44,995 nucleotides of DNA from Chitinophaga pinensis. GTDB taxonomy: Bacteria; Bacteroidota; Bacteroidia; NS11-12g; UBA955. Made by a program: the position numbers and the translations under genes. The stretch covers positions 1 to 44,995 of the forward strand of contig CAMDAF010000018.1 of assembly GCA_945888525.1 (NCBI GenBank), read 5' to 3'. Under the pieces are notes generated by a model. The model was not told where the DNA came from. It was given only the letters and a program-made list of their open reading frames with translations, and ran no database searches. Shown piece by piece: positions 14,860 to 18,956 of this stretch (the stretch's first letter is position 1; the number at the start of each line of letters is the position of its first letter).

Positions 14860-15663
14860 TCATTCTAAAATGGAGCGCAAAATTACGAATTCATCTTTTA
14901 AAATGAACAATCTTTCTTTTTCAATTCGAATGCCTTTTGTTCCAAATGGAAGAGTTTGGTTAATTTTCTCCATTTTTAGCATTGATTTGTTGTAGACATA
15001 AATGGAATTGTTTTTTAGAAAGACGATTTTACTGTTTAAGACTTGGAATGACTTTAAGGTATCTATTAAAACAGTTTTGTTGAAATTAGCATATAAATCA
15101 AATTCAAGCAAATTGAAATTATTGAGTAATAATATACTTGAATTAATGTCTAATATTATACTTGGATTAATCTCATTTCCAACAGTGAAGTTATTAAGCG
15201 ATGCACTTTCATTTAGAAGCTTAAGATCTTTGCTGTATTTTTTTAGTTTCTGATCGGACATATCAAACAGCCATATTTGGTTGTCAGAACTCCGAGCTAT
15301 GCATGCTATTTGTGAAATGCCTATGCTTTCTAAATCACATTCACCTCTAATATTTAACATGTTATCTAAAAAGATAATTTTATTCTGATCACGGTAAAAA
15401 ACATATATTTCAAAGGGGTTTCCAGCATCAAAAGAACTAATATTACCTAGGACCTTAAAATTGACAGTAGCTAACTTTTGTCCATTCTTATTATATTTAA
15501 CAATGTCGTTTGTGGGCGTAATAATGTAAAGATTTTCTAAATTGTCACTGCTAATGGTGCTTCCTAAGGGGATTTTGATTGTATCAGTCGATAAACTTTG
15601 TGATTGTATTTGAGAAATACATAGAAACGAAATGCAAACAATTAGTTTATTGATAAATGTCAT
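14860..15663 (-). CDS. Exported hypothetical protein, probable beta-propeller
   Basis: The 267-residue product starts with a signal peptide (NKLIVCISFLCISQIQSQ) and is then made of repeated strand-rich segments such as DNLENLYIITPTNDIVKYN, DNQIWLFDMSDQKLKKYS and NSILLLNNFNLLEFD. The xLYII...IxKY pattern resembles NHL/6-bladed propeller blades. No catalytic motif is seen. Its ATG overlaps the lpxH stop by 4 nt, so the two are translationally coupled. From memory, such propeller-like proteins occur next to lpxH-like genes in other Bacteroidota, but a function in lipid A synthesis is not shown. Confidence 0.7.
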   Translation of the reverse strand: MTFINKLIVCISFLCISQIQSQSLSTDTIKIPLGSTISSDNLENLYIITPTNDIVKYNKNGQKLATVNFKVLGNISSFDAGNPFEIYVFYRDQNKIIFLDNMLNIRGECDLESIGISQIACIARSSDNQIWLFDMSDQKLKKYSKDLKLLNESASLNNFTVGNEINPSIILDINSSILLLNNFNLLEFDLYANFNKTVLIDTLKSFQVLNSKIVFLKNNSIYVYNKSMLKMEKINQTLPFGTKGIRIEKERLFILKDEFVILRSILE

Positions 15664-16457
15664 TGGAATTGTTTTAATTCAAGATTTATGCCATCAAATT
15701 CAGCATAAGTAAAATCATTCACCCACTCGCCCAAATTAATGTATCTTGAGTTGTTTTGAAGCTGTAAGTCTTGCGCCAAATGCCTGTGCCCACAAATGAA
15801 AAAATCAACATGCTTTTTCTTTAACAGCTCTTTGCAATGAATGATTATAAATTCGTTGTCCTCGCCTAGGTATATTTTATCTTTATTTCCTTTGCTTATG
15901 CGGCTTCTACGCGATAAAAAATTGGCCAATCCAACGCCTAAATATGGATGAAGGAAGCCGAATAATTTGACTGAAAGTTTGCTTCTAAAAATTTTCTTGA
16001 TCATTTTATATCCATTATCTCCTGGTCCTATTCCATCGCCATGGTGGATATAAAATCGTTTGCCATTTCTTTCAATTTCTAGCTCATTGCTCACGATTTT
16101 AGCACCTATTTCTTTTTCAAGATATCCAAAGGTCCACATGTCGTGATTTCCTTTAAAGAAAGTAATTTTAATGCCTTGGTCAGACAAATCAGAGAGTTTG
16201 CCTAATAAGCGGGTATAACCTTTTGGAACGACGTGTTTGTATTCAAACCAAAAGTCAAAGACATCCCCTACCAAATATATTTCAGCTGCATTGTGTCGAA
16301 TTGACTCCAGCCACGCACATATTTTCTTTTCTCTTACCAATGAAGACGCATAATTTGGTACACCTAAATGGAAATCTGAAGCGAAGTATATATGTGTTTT
16401 GTTATTCTCCAATTTATATTTTTGTTCAAAGGTTATTGTTTTTACTGAGAAATCCAA
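15660..16457 (-). CDS. lpxH: UDP-2,3-diacylglucosamine diphosphatase, LpxH-like metallophosphoesterase
   Basis: Hydrolyses UDP-2,3-diacylglucosamine to lipid X and UMP in lipid A synthesis, at the cytoplasmic face of the inner membrane. The 265-residue product shows the five calcineurin-like metal motifs in order: FASDFHLG, GDVFDFW, KGNHDMW, HHGDG and GHRH. DFHLG with GDVFDFWFE is characteristic of LpxH and relatives. The only in-frame initiator before the conserved start is a TTG at 16457 (LDFSVKTITF). It heads the leftward operon that continues through the propeller protein to prfA. The 75 bp repeat array begins 79 bp upstream. Confidence 0.88.
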   Translation of the reverse strand: MDFSVKTITFEQKYKLENNKTHIYFASDFHLGVPNYASSLVREKKICAWLESIRHNAAEIYLVGDVFDFWFEYKHVVPKGYTRLLGKLSDLSDQGIKITFFKGNHDMWTFGYLEKEIGAKIVSNELEIERNGKRFYIHHGDGIGPGDNGYKMIKKIFRSKLSVKLFGFLHPYLGVGLANFLSRRSRISKGNKDKIYLGEDNEFIIIHCKELLKKKHVDFFICGHRHLAQDLQLQNNSRYINLGEWVNDFTYAEFDGINLELKQFQ

Positions 16458-16535
16458 TTTTCAATTGCATTAAGCCGCTTATGGATCTTGTGTTTTTTGG
16501 ATCTAAAGGCAATTTTAGGTATTTATTTACTGCGG

Positions 16536-16676
16536 AAGAAAATATAACGATTTGTTGAATACCGTTAAAGGAAGGGATTATTGACATGATCCGTAAGGGG
16601 GCAGTCCTTCAAGAAAAAATAACGATTTGTTGAATACCGTTAGAGGGAAGGGATTATTTCATGATCCGTAAGGGGG
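16536..16676. repeat. Left array of the 75 bp tandem repeat (two units)
   Basis: Unit 1 spans 16536-16610 and unit 2 16611-16676, where it breaks off after AAGGGGG. Each unit begins AAGAAAA.ATAACGATTTG, continues TTGAATACCGTTA, then a GGGATTAT...CATGATCC segment able to pair GGAT with ATCC, and ends CGTAAGGGGG. The same unit recurs at 18009-18130. Not coding in any convincing frame. Function unknown. Confidence 0.85.
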
Positions 16677-16780
16677 ATTAGAATTTATTTGATTTATTTG
16701 ACAATTTGATTATTTAAGCTAAGCGGTCGTTTTTTTGAAATATCAATATAATTCGACTTACAGGTATTTATAGATTTGTA

Positions 16781-16924
16781 TCAGCTTATTTTGAAAAAAT
16801 TTGAATACGCTAAAGATTTTCCAATTGAAGTAATGCTCACATATCTGACGTCTGTTTGAGTAAATCCATTTGTTGTAGCCAACAATATGAAAAATATTGA
16901 TAGAACTGTTTTTAAACTTTTCAC
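16781..16924 (-). CDS. Possible 47-residue exported peptide or gene fragment
   Basis: A GTG at 16924 opens a frame reading VKSLKTVLSIFFILLATTNG then FTQTDVRYVSITSIGKSL, ending at 16781. The N-terminus is an excellent signal peptide (Lys, hydrophobic core, cleavage after the FTQ region), but only about 25 mature residues follow. It lies 26 nt downstream of the Cys-rich exported protein on the same strand. It may be a small secreted peptide or the 5' remnant of a degraded exported-protein gene. CACCAA-GA-TTGGTG, a short hairpin, covers the start codon. Low confidence: no ATG and no recognised homologue. Confidence 0.3.
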   Translation of the reverse strand: MKSLKTVLSIFFILLATTNGFTQTDVRYVSITSIGKSLAYSNFFKIS

Positions 16925-16950
16925 CAAGATTGGTGGCTAAAGTTTAAAAA

Positions 16951-17850
16951 TTATTCTTTGAGTTTCATACAATATTGCTCAGCACATGGTACAGAACAAA
17001 ATATAGTTGGCGCTGAAGTTTTTCCCCATAAACCACCATCCTCAATTTCCGTTGAACAAATCTTATTGGATTTTATTTTAACAGCCGACCCAGTAAACTT
17101 TTTATTACAATGATCACACTCTTTTTCTGATGCCAACCATTCTGCTCTTCTGTTTGTTATATCTTGTAACCTTTCAGTTAGCAGTTGCTCATCAATAATA
17201 CCATAAGTAAACTTATAATATATAGCCGTATAAATAAAAATCGCCTTGAATGGATCATAATATTTATAAGTGCCAATTGGCGAATTATTCGATTTTTGAT
17301 TTGCCGTTAAATCATAGATTTTTCCACAAGAAAATCGAGCAAAGGGTTTAAAACCTTCATCTTTCTTCATATTTTTCGATATCGCTTTAAAAGTATCAAT
17401 ATTATCAATTTCATTCAAATAAATCACAGAATCTACGATTAAAAACAAACTAAACTTTGCGCCATTAGGATAGTCGGCGTTATAGGGTTGCCTTTCTATT
17501 AAATGTGAAATTACAATTGCAGTATCGTTTAGGCGAAAATAGCCAAAACTGTAGTCACTCCCTTTTAATGAACTCCCAGCTCTATCCTGTAAATATATGT
17601 CCTTATAAACCGAAATAAATTCTTTGCCACCTTGATTTATCTTATATTTAACATCTCCATTTTCAATTGCTGATTGAAAAGCAAAAGTTGTCCCACCTAT
17701 TGTTAAAGACGTATTTTTCAATGCAGCGTCTATACCCTCGCTCAAAGCTTTATCAAGTAATTTTATGCCCACATTTTTTAATAGTTGAGCATTTGAAAAT
17801 TGTATATTCAAGCAGAATAATGCAATTGTGATAATTTTTTTAATTTCCAT
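16951..17850 (-). CDS. Exported hypothetical protein with C-terminal Cys-rich (zinc-finger-like) segment
   Basis: I do not recognise the family. From the ATG at 17850 the product is 299 residues and begins MEIKKIITIALFCLNIQFSN followed by AQ, a signal peptide. The body has a strand-rich half (TIGGTTFAFQSAIENGDVKY, YSFGYFRLNDTAIVISHLI) and then a helical stretch around LTERLQDITNRRAEWLASEK. The last 55 residues hold CDHCNKKF, a lone Cys, and CSVPCAEQYC: six cysteines plus His, arranged like a structural zinc site. A TATATTTG -7 element at 17873-17880 supports this start over the in-frame ATG at 17871. It lies alone between the two 75 bp repeat arrays and looks accessory. Confidence 0.75.
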   Translation of the reverse strand: MEIKKIITIALFCLNIQFSNAQLLKNVGIKLLDKALSEGIDAALKNTSLTIGGTTFAFQSAIENGDVKYKINQGGKEFISVYKDIYLQDRAGSSLKGSDYSFGYFRLNDTAIVISHLIERQPYNADYPNGAKFSLFLIVDSVIYLNEIDNIDTFKAISKNMKKDEGFKPFARFSCGKIYDLTANQKSNNSPIGTYKYYDPFKAIFIYTAIYYKFTYGIIDEQLLTERLQDITNRRAEWLASEKECDHCNKKFTGSAVKIKSNKICSTEIEDGGLWGKTSAPTIFCSVPCAEQYCMKLKE

Positions 17851-17872
17851 ATTTTTTAAAAGTAGGCACATT

Positions 17873-17880
17873 CAAATATA
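17873..17880 (-). promoter_or_regulatory. -7 promoter element for the Cys-rich exported protein
   Basis: The minus strand reads TATATTTG, an exact TAnnTTTG match, 22 nt before the ATG at 17850. No TTTG is seen at the usual -33 spacing. Confidence 0.5.
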
Positions 17881-18008
17881 GAATGTATTAACAATATTAA
17901 AACTTTTAGGGGATATTTAAAAGTATTAAATTGTTTTTTTGCAAAATATTTACCGATCTAAAAATAGTGTTCATTAAATCATTGACTTTTTGTATGTTAT
18001 AGACGACA

Positions 18009-18130
18009 GGATACATCCGTGAGGGGGTGGTCCGACAAGAAAAAATAACGATTTGTTGAATACCGTTAGAGGGAAGGGATTATTTCATGATCCGTAAGGG
18101 GGTGGTCCGACAAGAAAAAATAACGATTTG
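18009..18130. repeat. Right array of the 75 bp tandem repeat (partial, full, partial)
   Basis: A partial unit (18009-18036), a full 75 bp unit (18037-18111) and a unit cut after 19 nt (18112-18130). 18037-18102 is identical over 66 bp to 16611-16676, so the two arrays are direct repeats of each other about 1.4 kb apart. The final unit is broken at the palindrome starting at 18125. Confidence 0.85.
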
Positions 18131-18205
18131 ATCTTTGATCAAATCTATTTTTTTGTCTCAAATTCCCTTACAAGCGAGCTTGACGGGATTTTTGAGACAA
18201 AAAAA
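18125..18205. repeat. Two nested hairpins between the repeat array and the tRNA-Cys terminator
   Basis: GATTTGATC (18125-18133) and GATCAAATC (18137-18145) form a perfect 9 bp stem with loop TTT. TTTTTTTGTCTCAAA (18148-18162) and TTTGAGACAAAAAAA (18191-18205) form a 15 bp stem enclosing about 28 nt, part of which can also pair (TTCCC with GGGA). The second stem's right arm runs into the terminator hairpin at 18201. Confidence 0.65.
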
Positions 18206-18235
18206 TAAGACTTCACTGTGTGAAGTCTTATTTTT
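18201..18235 (-). terminator. Strong terminator downstream of tRNA-Cys
   Basis: AAAAATAAGACTTCAC (18201-18216) pairs perfectly with 18220-18235 around a TGT loop. Both flanks are A/T runs, so it could work in both directions. On the minus strand it starts about 6 nt after the tRNA-Cys 3' end. Confidence 0.8.
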
Positions 18236-18240
18236 TCTTG

Positions 18241-18311
18241 AGGTCGGAAGCGGATTCGAACCGCTGTAGAGGGTTTTGCAGACCCGTGCCTAGCCACTCG
18301 GCCATCCGACC
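18241..18311 (-). tRNA. tRNA-Cys (GCA)
   Basis: The minus strand folds as a tRNA. The acceptor GGTCGGA pairs with TCCGACC, the anticodon loop is CTGCAAA (anticodon GCA), and the T arm is AGCGG-TTCGAAT-CCGCT. The discriminator base is U, as expected for tRNA-Cys. CCA is not encoded. It has its own promoter and terminator, so it is a single-gene transcript. Confidence 0.95.
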
Positions 18312-18331
18312 TTTTTTTCTTAAGAGAGGTG

Positions 18332-18363
18332 CAAATTTAAGTGATTTATAATATAAATTCAAA
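18332..18363 (-). promoter_or_regulatory. Promoter of tRNA-Cys
   Basis: On the minus strand TTTG (18360-18363), a 20 nt spacer and TAAATTTG (18332-18339) match the Bacteroidota consensus. The -7 box is 20 nt upstream of the mature tRNA 5' end. Confidence 0.7.
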
Positions 18364-18398
18364 TAAATGTACGTTCCAAAAGAACTTAAGTATTTTGA

Positions 18399-18956
18399 TT
18401 AGGCCATCTTGCGGATGGTTCCTACAGATTTACCTTTGCTTTTGCTGTCGCCTTTAGGGCCAGCATTTTTAACAGGTTTTTCTATTTTGGCTTTTGCCTC
18501 AGTTTTAGCTTTTGCTTCAGACTTTTGCTCATCTGTAGCATTGTTTTCTTCATCTAGAGATTTTCTCAGCGCATCAAAATCAAGTTTGTCAGAAAGAATA
18601 ATATACCAATTGGCTAATTTCTTCATGTCAGACAAGTAAATCCTCTCATTGTCATAACTAGGAAGTACTTTTCCTAAAAACTGAGGGAATAAATCATCAT
18701 TGGATTTTTTTTCCGGAACCACTAAACCTTCTTTAACCTTTTCGTTAATTGTTAGTAAAATAGCAGCAAGCCTTTCTTCGCCATCCATGGTGAACATGGC
18801 GATATCAGACAAAATAGAAACCTTTGTATTGGCAGAGGTAGGGATTTTTTTGCCTGTGCCATCTAAGGCTTCAACAATCAAACCATTTGTTCTTTGACCA
18901 ATTACATGGTATAGGCCGGGCTGACCAGCAATAGCGACAATATCTTTCAATTCCAT
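18399..18956 (-). CDS. DUF5606-like conserved hypothetical protein
   Basis: Start taken at the ATG at 18956 (MELKDIVAIAGQPGLYHVIG), giving 185 residues; the frame is open 48 nt further but without support. The N-terminal half is a compact conserved domain (TNGLIVEALDGTGKKIPT, KVSILSDIAMFT) reminiscent of the Bacteroidota-specific DUF5606 family, whose function is unknown. The C-terminal third is low-complexity, Lys/Ala/Glu-rich (KSEAKAKTEAKAKIEKP) and probably disordered, ending in a basic tail. It lies divergent to the DUF4199 gene. The domain assignment is from memory. Confidence 0.7.
   Translation of the reverse strand: MELKDIVAIAGQPGLYHVIGQRTNGLIVEALDGTGKKIPTSANTKVSILSDIAMFTMDGEERLAAILLTINEKVKEGLVVPEKKSNDDLFPQFLGKVLPSYDNERIYLSDMKKLANWYIILSDKLDFDALRKSLDEENNATDEQKSEAKAKTEAKAKIEKPVKNAGPKGDSKSKGKSVGTIRKMA

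Follow-up and report, generated by a model that had tools for sequence, protein, structure and literature searches.

Which kind of DNA places a single gene between short tandem repeats directly behind a transfer RNA (tRNA) gene? The question is raised by ~1.7 kb, from tRNA-Cys to the last repeat, within 44,995 nucleotides (nt) assigned to Chitinophaga pinensis (assembly GCA_945888525.1, contig CAMDAF010000018.1; "the window" is this DNA at its full length). An earlier note had described 75-bp tandem repeats on either side of one gene and had likened them to a captured gene cassette. Judged from its sequence, the repeat is part of a unit in which the 3' end of the tRNA itself is repeated—the key feature beyond that reading—and hairpin units of this kind behind tRNAs point to a little-known type of tRNA-targeting mobile DNA. 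We are evenly divided on a fuller account, in which the window's repeats are tRNA-tail units from small mobile elements inserted at the T-loop of tRNA-Cys, with a SegB-like GIY-YIG nuclease as the likeliest driver.

The unit contains a core hairpin, P5, which in tRNA sense reads GGAT-C-AT-GNA-AT-A-ATCC (core GGATCATG-N(1-2)-AATAATCC) and consists of a GGAT/ATCC stem and, beyond a C.A mismatch, a short inner stem capped by a GNA or GNNA loop. A complete unit behind a tRNA comprises an outer stem (P1) around three hairpins, a C-rich linker, P5 and then a copy of the tRNA 3' end; architecture of this P1–P5 type recurs downstream of other tRNAs. In the sense of tRNA-Cys, the order in the window is tRNA-Cys, a 130-nt structure, a repeat unit, the gene, two more units and lpxH, with these features (aa, amino acids; ORF, open reading frame):

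18240–18311, minus strand: intact tRNA-Cys(GCA), the anchor of the array (ARAGORN and Rfam tRNA)
18111–18240, minus strand: outer stem P1 (CAAGAAAAAATAA / TTATTTTTTCTTG) around hairpins P2, P3 and P4 (DNA fold; inverted repeats I1, I2, I12, I18, I19)
within 18111–18240, minus strand: P2, a terminator-like hairpin with T-run directly behind tRNA-Cys
18077–18110, minus strand: C-rich linker and core hairpin P5 no. 1, GGATCATGAAATAATCC in tRNA sense
18063–18076, minus strand: decayed tRNA-Cys 3'-end copy after P5, CTTCCCTCTAACGG against GCTTCCGACCTC in the tRNA (by eye)
18009–18062, minus strand: repeat unit 2 with a degenerate P5 at its end, GGATGTATCC in tRNA sense
16951–17847, minus strand: passenger gene for a predicted exported protein of 298 aa
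16781–16927, minus strand: 48-aa ORF with a signal-peptide-like start
16651–16676, minus strand: P5 no. 3 with its linker, beyond the passenger gene as seen from the tRNA
16544–16650, minus strand: tail copy, repeat unit, P5 no. 4 (16575–16592, GGATCATGTCAATAATCC in tRNA sense) and last tail copy
15660–16457: metallophosphoesterase, consistent with lpxH

Much of the earlier description holds for this layout. Repeat copies lie at 16544–16618, 16619–16676, 18015–18044 and 18045–18119, with a further start at 18120–18130, and the 75-bp spacing is real; Tandem Repeats Finder reports the first array (16536–16676, period 75, 1.9 copies, score 245), and the second (18015–18130) is missing from its output for the window. 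The 66-bp block said to be common to both arrays (16611–16676 and 18037–18102) is exact by sequence comparison, the match extending at least one base further left. The neighbours had also been named correctly—ARAGORN finds tRNA-Cys, and the metallophosphoesterase fits lpxH—and of the hairpin-capable repeat parts, which are real, GGAT...ATCC is the structural core. The passenger gene is bracketed by an intact P5 on one side and, on the tRNA side, by a degenerate one whose core (GGATACATCC, 18009–18018) adjoins it; its flanks have a 13-bp block in common (ATCCGTAAGGGGG at 16664–16676, ATCCGTGAGGGGG at 18015–18027, 12/13 identical).

The structure of the unit is, to judge by comparison among units, under selection. 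Folded as DNA, the minus strand of 18077–18240 reaches -42.4 kcal/mol, against a mean of -13.1 for dinucleotide shuffles (z -10.8). RNAalifold on a MAFFT alignment (A1, comprising 32 of 40 usable units) returned P5 only; since MAFFT is not structure-aware and P5 is fixed by the search pattern, P1 strands were instead paired with their own partner or with strands of other units, leaving out units with N, loci L060, L067 and L112, bodies shorter than 100 nt and starts that occurred more than once. Own partners gave a mean of -17.2 kcal/mol vs -8.7 across units, and ranked within the best 5% in 25 of 38 units. The outermost P5 pair tracks the tRNA, being G-C in 50/60 for Ser, C-G in 4/8 for Cys, G-C in 4/6 for Arg and A-T in 4/5 for Pro, Met and Tyr together. 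Inner stems of P5 differ in length and still pair, with 74 end pairs over 34 distinct inner sequences vs 21 when shuffled; 14 of the 34 have the pattern-fixed form, and 11 of the 20 others close a GNA or GNNA loop (hand count).

The units are tied to tRNA 3' ends. A tail of the unit's own tRNA, at least 75% identical over 12 nt, is present in 32 of 77 units and in 1.8% of shuffles, with clear copies for the tRNA-Arg of G022 (...GAATCCCTACGAGTGCACGA vs ...ATAATCCCTAAGGGTGCACGA) and the tRNA-Cys of G003. A regenerated tRNA followed by a displaced copy of its 3' end is what marks a tRNA-integrated island; by eye, the copies in the window are decayed. We scanned 84,980 species, each represented by a single genome, with the pattern GGATCATGN{1,2}AATAATCCCT and obtained 95 stretches—by title 82 from Bacteroidota, 11 from other groups and two unclear ones counted apart (L081, and L082, titled Rhizobium). 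At 61 of the 82 Bacteroidota loci, 0 of the 11 others and one of the two unclear ones, a tRNA on the same strand is found no more than 1500 nt upstream, counts that are not fully independent because several loci share a genome; no opposite-strand tRNA was found within 1500 nt upstream at any of the 95. The 79 distinct tRNA–P5 pairs cover 12 anticodon types—Ser (four anticodons), Cys, Arg (three), Pro (two), Met and Tyr—and the distance from tRNA to P5 is about 126–156 nt in 65 of them. The looser form GGATC...AATCC, counted in an earlier locus set partly chosen by pattern, occurs in sense within 450 nt behind tRNAs in 106 distinct contexts, antisense in none and before tRNAs in five.

Closer to the window, the exact core occurs in 12 of 108 sampled genomes of the order, all 12 from the window's family. 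Ten have at least one match behind an intact tRNA-Cys, -Ser or -Arg, and the matches of G014 and G019 are only beside tRNA fragments; an extra match in G003 (L019) is apparently in a coding region (by eye). A relaxed pattern matched 58 of 345 phylum genomes vs one with a reversed control, but the control contains ACTAGG and may understate chance matches, and a tRNA on the same strand, at most 1500 nt upstream, is present at only 4 of 30 relaxed-pattern loci (one per genome), so that this count gives no prevalence. In G165 and G151, relaxed-pattern places with a same-strand upstream tRNA lie at other contig positions; the pattern was also run on 13 genomes selected because they bear P5. L082, a contig titled Rhizobium sp. 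Q54 MAG, has typical P5 units and is perhaps a misbinned Bacteroidota contig. A phage origin was considered and dropped: the single match in viral_contigs has no tRNA beside it and no C-rich linker (by eye), and was taken as chance.

Presence of the unit is patchy even behind identical tRNAs. At 30 Flavobacterium loci with an identical tRNA-Ser(UGA), the unit is present at two and absent at 24, the remaining four being too short (2/26); in the window's family, tRNA-Cys has units in several genera and none at 26 or more loci (by eye). The interval between lpxH and tRNA-Cys holds four units and no gene in G017, units and then a membrane-protein-like ORF before lpxH in G008 and G019 (ORF type by eye), units and no clear ORF in G010, and, in G007, no unit and a different exported-looking ORF at that place (both by eye). 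Variable content at one site among relatives is what an island would show, and presence or absence of the segment, which the earlier note had proposed to compare, does vary: apart from G017, further members of the genus either have units and lack this gene or lack units altogether. In several relatives (among G005, G006, G009, G014, G018, G031 and G032), tRNA-Cys lies ~40–510 bases from a contig start, which would fit a region behind it that is repetitive or differs between strains.

Tandem copies and lodged genes are found elsewhere too. Flavobacterium sp. 14A (L063) has three near-identical ~170-bp units, the first two with a full tRNA tail. In Flavobacterium noncentrifugens a lone gene for a 1058-aa helicase (ResIII, DEAD; best PADLOC match PbeA, 9e-14) lies on the strand opposite the tRNA and is flanked by unit 1 on one side and by a displaced tRNA tail plus unit 2 on the other; in Taibaiella koreensis two P5 stand 8.8 kb apart with genes between; and in Ekhidna lutea (L045, 3076–3268) a complete tRNA-Arg(UCU) gene sits between two P5, as if the tRNA itself were a passenger. 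G173 has a lone GIY-YIG nuclease gene between units. The idea of a gene cassette between repeats at a tRNA survives in part: gene-free units in G017 and lone genes elsewhere agree with it, and no dispersed family exists in the window's own genome, where the earlier note had expected further copies. BLAST finds the 75-bp unit at a single locus, which rules out a dispersed repeat or cassette family there; the relaxed core pattern occurs at one further place (C1:194298), without the hairpin form and without a same-strand tRNA upstream.

One other origin for the patchiness, that the unit is an ancestral resident behind tRNA-Ser displaced by islands, was rejected on 15 Flavobacterium stretches: 11 show an exact 14-nt displaced tail, and none of these has a P5 within 260 nt after it. 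Two of the 15 (L290, L294) lack the exact tail, and L295 and L296 contain intact tRNAs only. Eight displaced tRNA-Ser tails (L282–L289) have a different left arm in common, which reads AATGCAGTATAAAAGCGGGATG...TTTTGTTCGAATCCC or nearly so and may serve a single integrase family as arm site.

We infer that the units are products of insertion, and likewise what drove it. Small mobile elements would insert at the T-loop of tRNA-Cys, each insertion supplying a new 3' end and trailer, by which the tRNA is made whole again, and displacing the former 3' end downstream; the T-loop (TTCGAATCC) of this displaced end would become hairpin P5. Repeated insertion and tandem amplification would produce the array, and accessory genes would come to lodge between units, the window's gene for an exported Cys-rich protein being one such passenger. 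The likeliest driver would be a small free-standing SegB-like GIY-YIG nuclease that cuts tRNA genes and leaves the copying to repair—our favourite over its rival, the tyrosine recombinases—and the window's array would be a remnant that lacks the nuclease.

Relatives of one small GIY-YIG protein occur at four independent places in 1.42 Mb of loci (L001–L304 and the window). GIY-YIG genes lie between or directly behind P5 in L042, L101 (three copies, one cut by the locus end) and L302; in L180 (~1150–1703) such a gene stands between a 5' fragment of tRNA-Cys (positions 1–41) and an intact tRNA-Cys, the mirror of the usual arrangement. A further set of 50 loci was chosen by GIY-YIG score from 118 Bacteroidota (the top locus in each of 30 genomes, plus the next 20 by score). 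Among its 59 distinct GIY-YIG domains, 13 have a same-strand tRNA within 400 nt upstream and one has a downstream tRNA; nine of the 13 loci have a copied tRNA tail behind the gene, several copies starting from the D arm, and in several of these nine displaced tails the anticodon or T arm is replaced or split by a hairpin (both by eye). Nuclease genes accompanied by a tRNA remnant with hairpin scars thus recur, and P5 units look like such arrangements after reduction to a T-arm scar. Small GIY-YIG genes directly behind tRNAs and followed by a displaced tRNA fragment were noted at L306, L313, L318, L320, L322, L324, L333, L343, L347, L349 and L353; at many of these loci a hairpin takes the place of the fragment's anticodon or T arm or splits it.

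SegB offers the nearest model. According to one report (PMC13096335), this enzyme, a GIY-YIG nuclease encoded by T-even phages, has its cutting sites within tRNA genes, prefers the motif RAWTSGAAC, which is present in 23 of 83 sites, and is required for tandem amplification of a tRNA segment. In our reading the reverse complement of the motif, GTTCSAWTY, would fit the usual T-loop string of tRNAs; it is present in 79 of 83 P5-bearing tRNAs and in none of 78 P5 copies.

Several observations weigh against this account. The motif GTTCSAWTY is common, occurring also in 106 of 135 other tRNAs of the loci, and therefore speaks for compatibility with SegB-like cutting and is not proof of it; cutting, excision and transposition have none of them been observed. 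A SegB-like homing element should stand at tRNA genes and bring a nuclease gene: the location is as expected, and the nuclease gene is present in L042, L101 and L302 and not in the window. The window's array has no GIY-YIG gene, and its genome (an assembly 98% complete) has no small stand-alone one, its only two GIY-YIG matches being in long frames (612 and 479 aa); the array is for this reason best called a remnant, and may be a fossil. Most P5 arrays likewise have no nearby GIY-YIG gene (four places in the 1.42 Mb of loci), and G165 has 13 pattern matches, mostly in tandem arrays, yet only two GIY-YIG matches. A 12-nt search found no displaced tail at 4 of the 13 GIY-YIG loci; by eye, L320 and L322 have split tail fragments, and L323 and L350 no clear one. 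No upstream tRNA was detected at 21 of the 82 Bacteroidota loci, six of which lie within 300 nt of a locus edge. Constancy of P5 in the large set is partly imposed by the search pattern, and the boundaries of the passenger gene in the window show no intact tRNA tail.

Accretion of islands by tyrosine recombinases would make the P5 units attR-like scars of small or deleted integrative elements and the window's gene ordinary island cargo; we regard this as rather unlikely. It would account for displaced tRNA 3' ends behind regenerated tRNAs, and—a point that also tells against a GIY-YIG driver—proteins with Arm-DNA-bind_5 and Phage_int_SAM_5 domains lie directly beside a displaced fragment and unit in L014, L072 and L089, those of L014 and L072 having a Phage_integrase domain in addition. 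However, all 11 displaced Flavobacterium tRNA-Ser tails examined, which we take for island ends, keep TTCGAATCCC, whereas P5 junctions lose TTCG, and eight of the 11 sit behind another shared arm. The inner stem of P5 also varies in length, which a double-stranded core site should presumably not tolerate. Relatives of the L014 integrase, as single query, occur at only three independent arrays in the loci; none is found among window ORFs of at least 90 aa, where other recombinase types were not searched for, and most arrays have neither a GIY-YIG nuclease nor an L014-type recombinase in their loci.

In the cassette arrays of integrons, genes stand between repeated sites of conserved structure, and the window's array resembles them in this respect. 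If folded single strands were recombined here in a similar manner, P5 would be an attC-like site recognised by structure and the units would be cassettes, one with a gene. The form of P5, often with a GNA/GNNA loop, is kept despite variable inner stems, pyrimidines at the third of four loop letters would favour DNA over GNRA loops of RNA, and the window's gene is placed P5-to-P5. We nevertheless consider integron-like recombination very improbable: the unit has one box and its complement in place of paired GTTRRRY/RYYYAAC boxes, on which attC is rejected; tandem empty units and a tRNA anchor are further differences; and the L014-type recombinase occurs at three arrays only (IntI itself was not searched for). 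We give as little credence to a non-mobile unit, copied by slippage, that would be either a conserved RNA or a terminator working in both directions in tRNA operons. P2 is terminator-like and directly behind the tRNA, the whole unit folds strongly, and some related species have similar units at the same tRNA (L255 and L266 vs L063). Against this, only tRNA reached the Rfam gathering score in window positions 16300–18500 and ten loci, which rejects a known RNA family; the unit is absent behind the 24 of 26 identical tRNA-Ser genes and the 26 or more family tRNA-Cys genes noted above; and slippage fails to explain copies of P5 and tail behind many tRNA species.

Gene gain at tRNAs with tRNA-end repeats is itself known (PMC10872708, PMC5217437). 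SegB of T4/T6 is a free-standing GIY-YIG homing endonuclease whose gene lies beside tRNAs; it cuts within tRNA genes and its action leads to tandem amplification (PMC13096335, PMC2988022); here, in contrast, we deal with bacterial chromosomes, tRNA 3' ends and hairpin-bearing displaced tails, and the window's array is nuclease-free. Additive flexible islands are likewise anchored at tRNAs, have tRNA 3'-end repeats and gain or lose cassettes (PMC10872708, PMC5217437), but their repeats are described as plain tRNA ends, whereas those reported here are structured hairpin units of ~75–170 bp, also gene-free. Tycheposons are tRNA-linked mobile elements with a tyrosine recombinase and cargo, given as 4–200 kb in PMC10872708, against units of ~75–170 bp and a window stretch of ~1.7 kb. 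Word searches of the open-licence literature—a weak form of absence, with most subscription papers outside it—found no description of the hairpin unit, nor of bacterial chromosomes in which GIY-YIG genes go with scarred tRNA tails.

There is a fair chance that the hairpin unit is a class of its own. More tentatively, we suggest that bacteria may have a distinct class of mobile DNA made up of minimal elements at tRNA tails, autonomous ones with a GIY-YIG nuclease and non-autonomous ones consisting of hairpins only. Such elements would insert into tRNA genes, rebuild the tRNA, mark the displaced tail with a stable DNA hairpin by which the target of the nuclease is destroyed, multiply in tandem and recruit passengers. 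If so, the passengers possibly include defence genes, and tRNA tails of Bacteroidota would be small platforms for gene capture. Few sites are used more often than tRNA genes for the integration of bacterial islands, and very small elements there are nearly invisible to annotation, having no ORF and no Rfam family. A tRNA-tail scar recognisable by structure would allow old and new insertions to be mapped, small passenger genes to be searched for systematically, and free-standing GIY-YIG nucleases of Bacteroidota to be tested as tRNA-directed selfish genes, as in T-even phages. A second type of small unit was seen at tRNA-Ser(GGA) of Sphingobacterium allocomposti (L109, ~2200–2400), where it lies upstream of the P5 unit and ends in GGGCTGAACC before a full tRNA tail.

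The window's passenger gene lies on the same strand as tRNA-Cys; its 298 aa are counted from the second ATG, the listed ORF beginning at 17871. The protein has a signal-peptide-like start and a Cys-rich C-terminus, and Pfam and PADLOC gave no match for it, in agreement with the unknown family assigned to it earlier. Its only homologue found, 44% identical and at a contig start, is in one of 69 other family genomes (G038), and an alignment of the two shows six C-terminal cysteines conserved; there is none in the 344 other Bacteroidota of the phylum sample, so the conservation in distant relatives that would have spoken against a captured gene is not seen. The gene is best read as a rare passenger among tRNA-tail units. 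Structure prediction from two sequences reached a mean pLDDT of only 48.7, and by eye we find for the gene's promoter only a TAnnTTTG-like string, a candidate promoter motif. The 48-aa ORF, which matches no family above its cut-off, corresponds to the fragment of a second gene suspected earlier and is probably what decay has left of the N-terminus of another exported protein.

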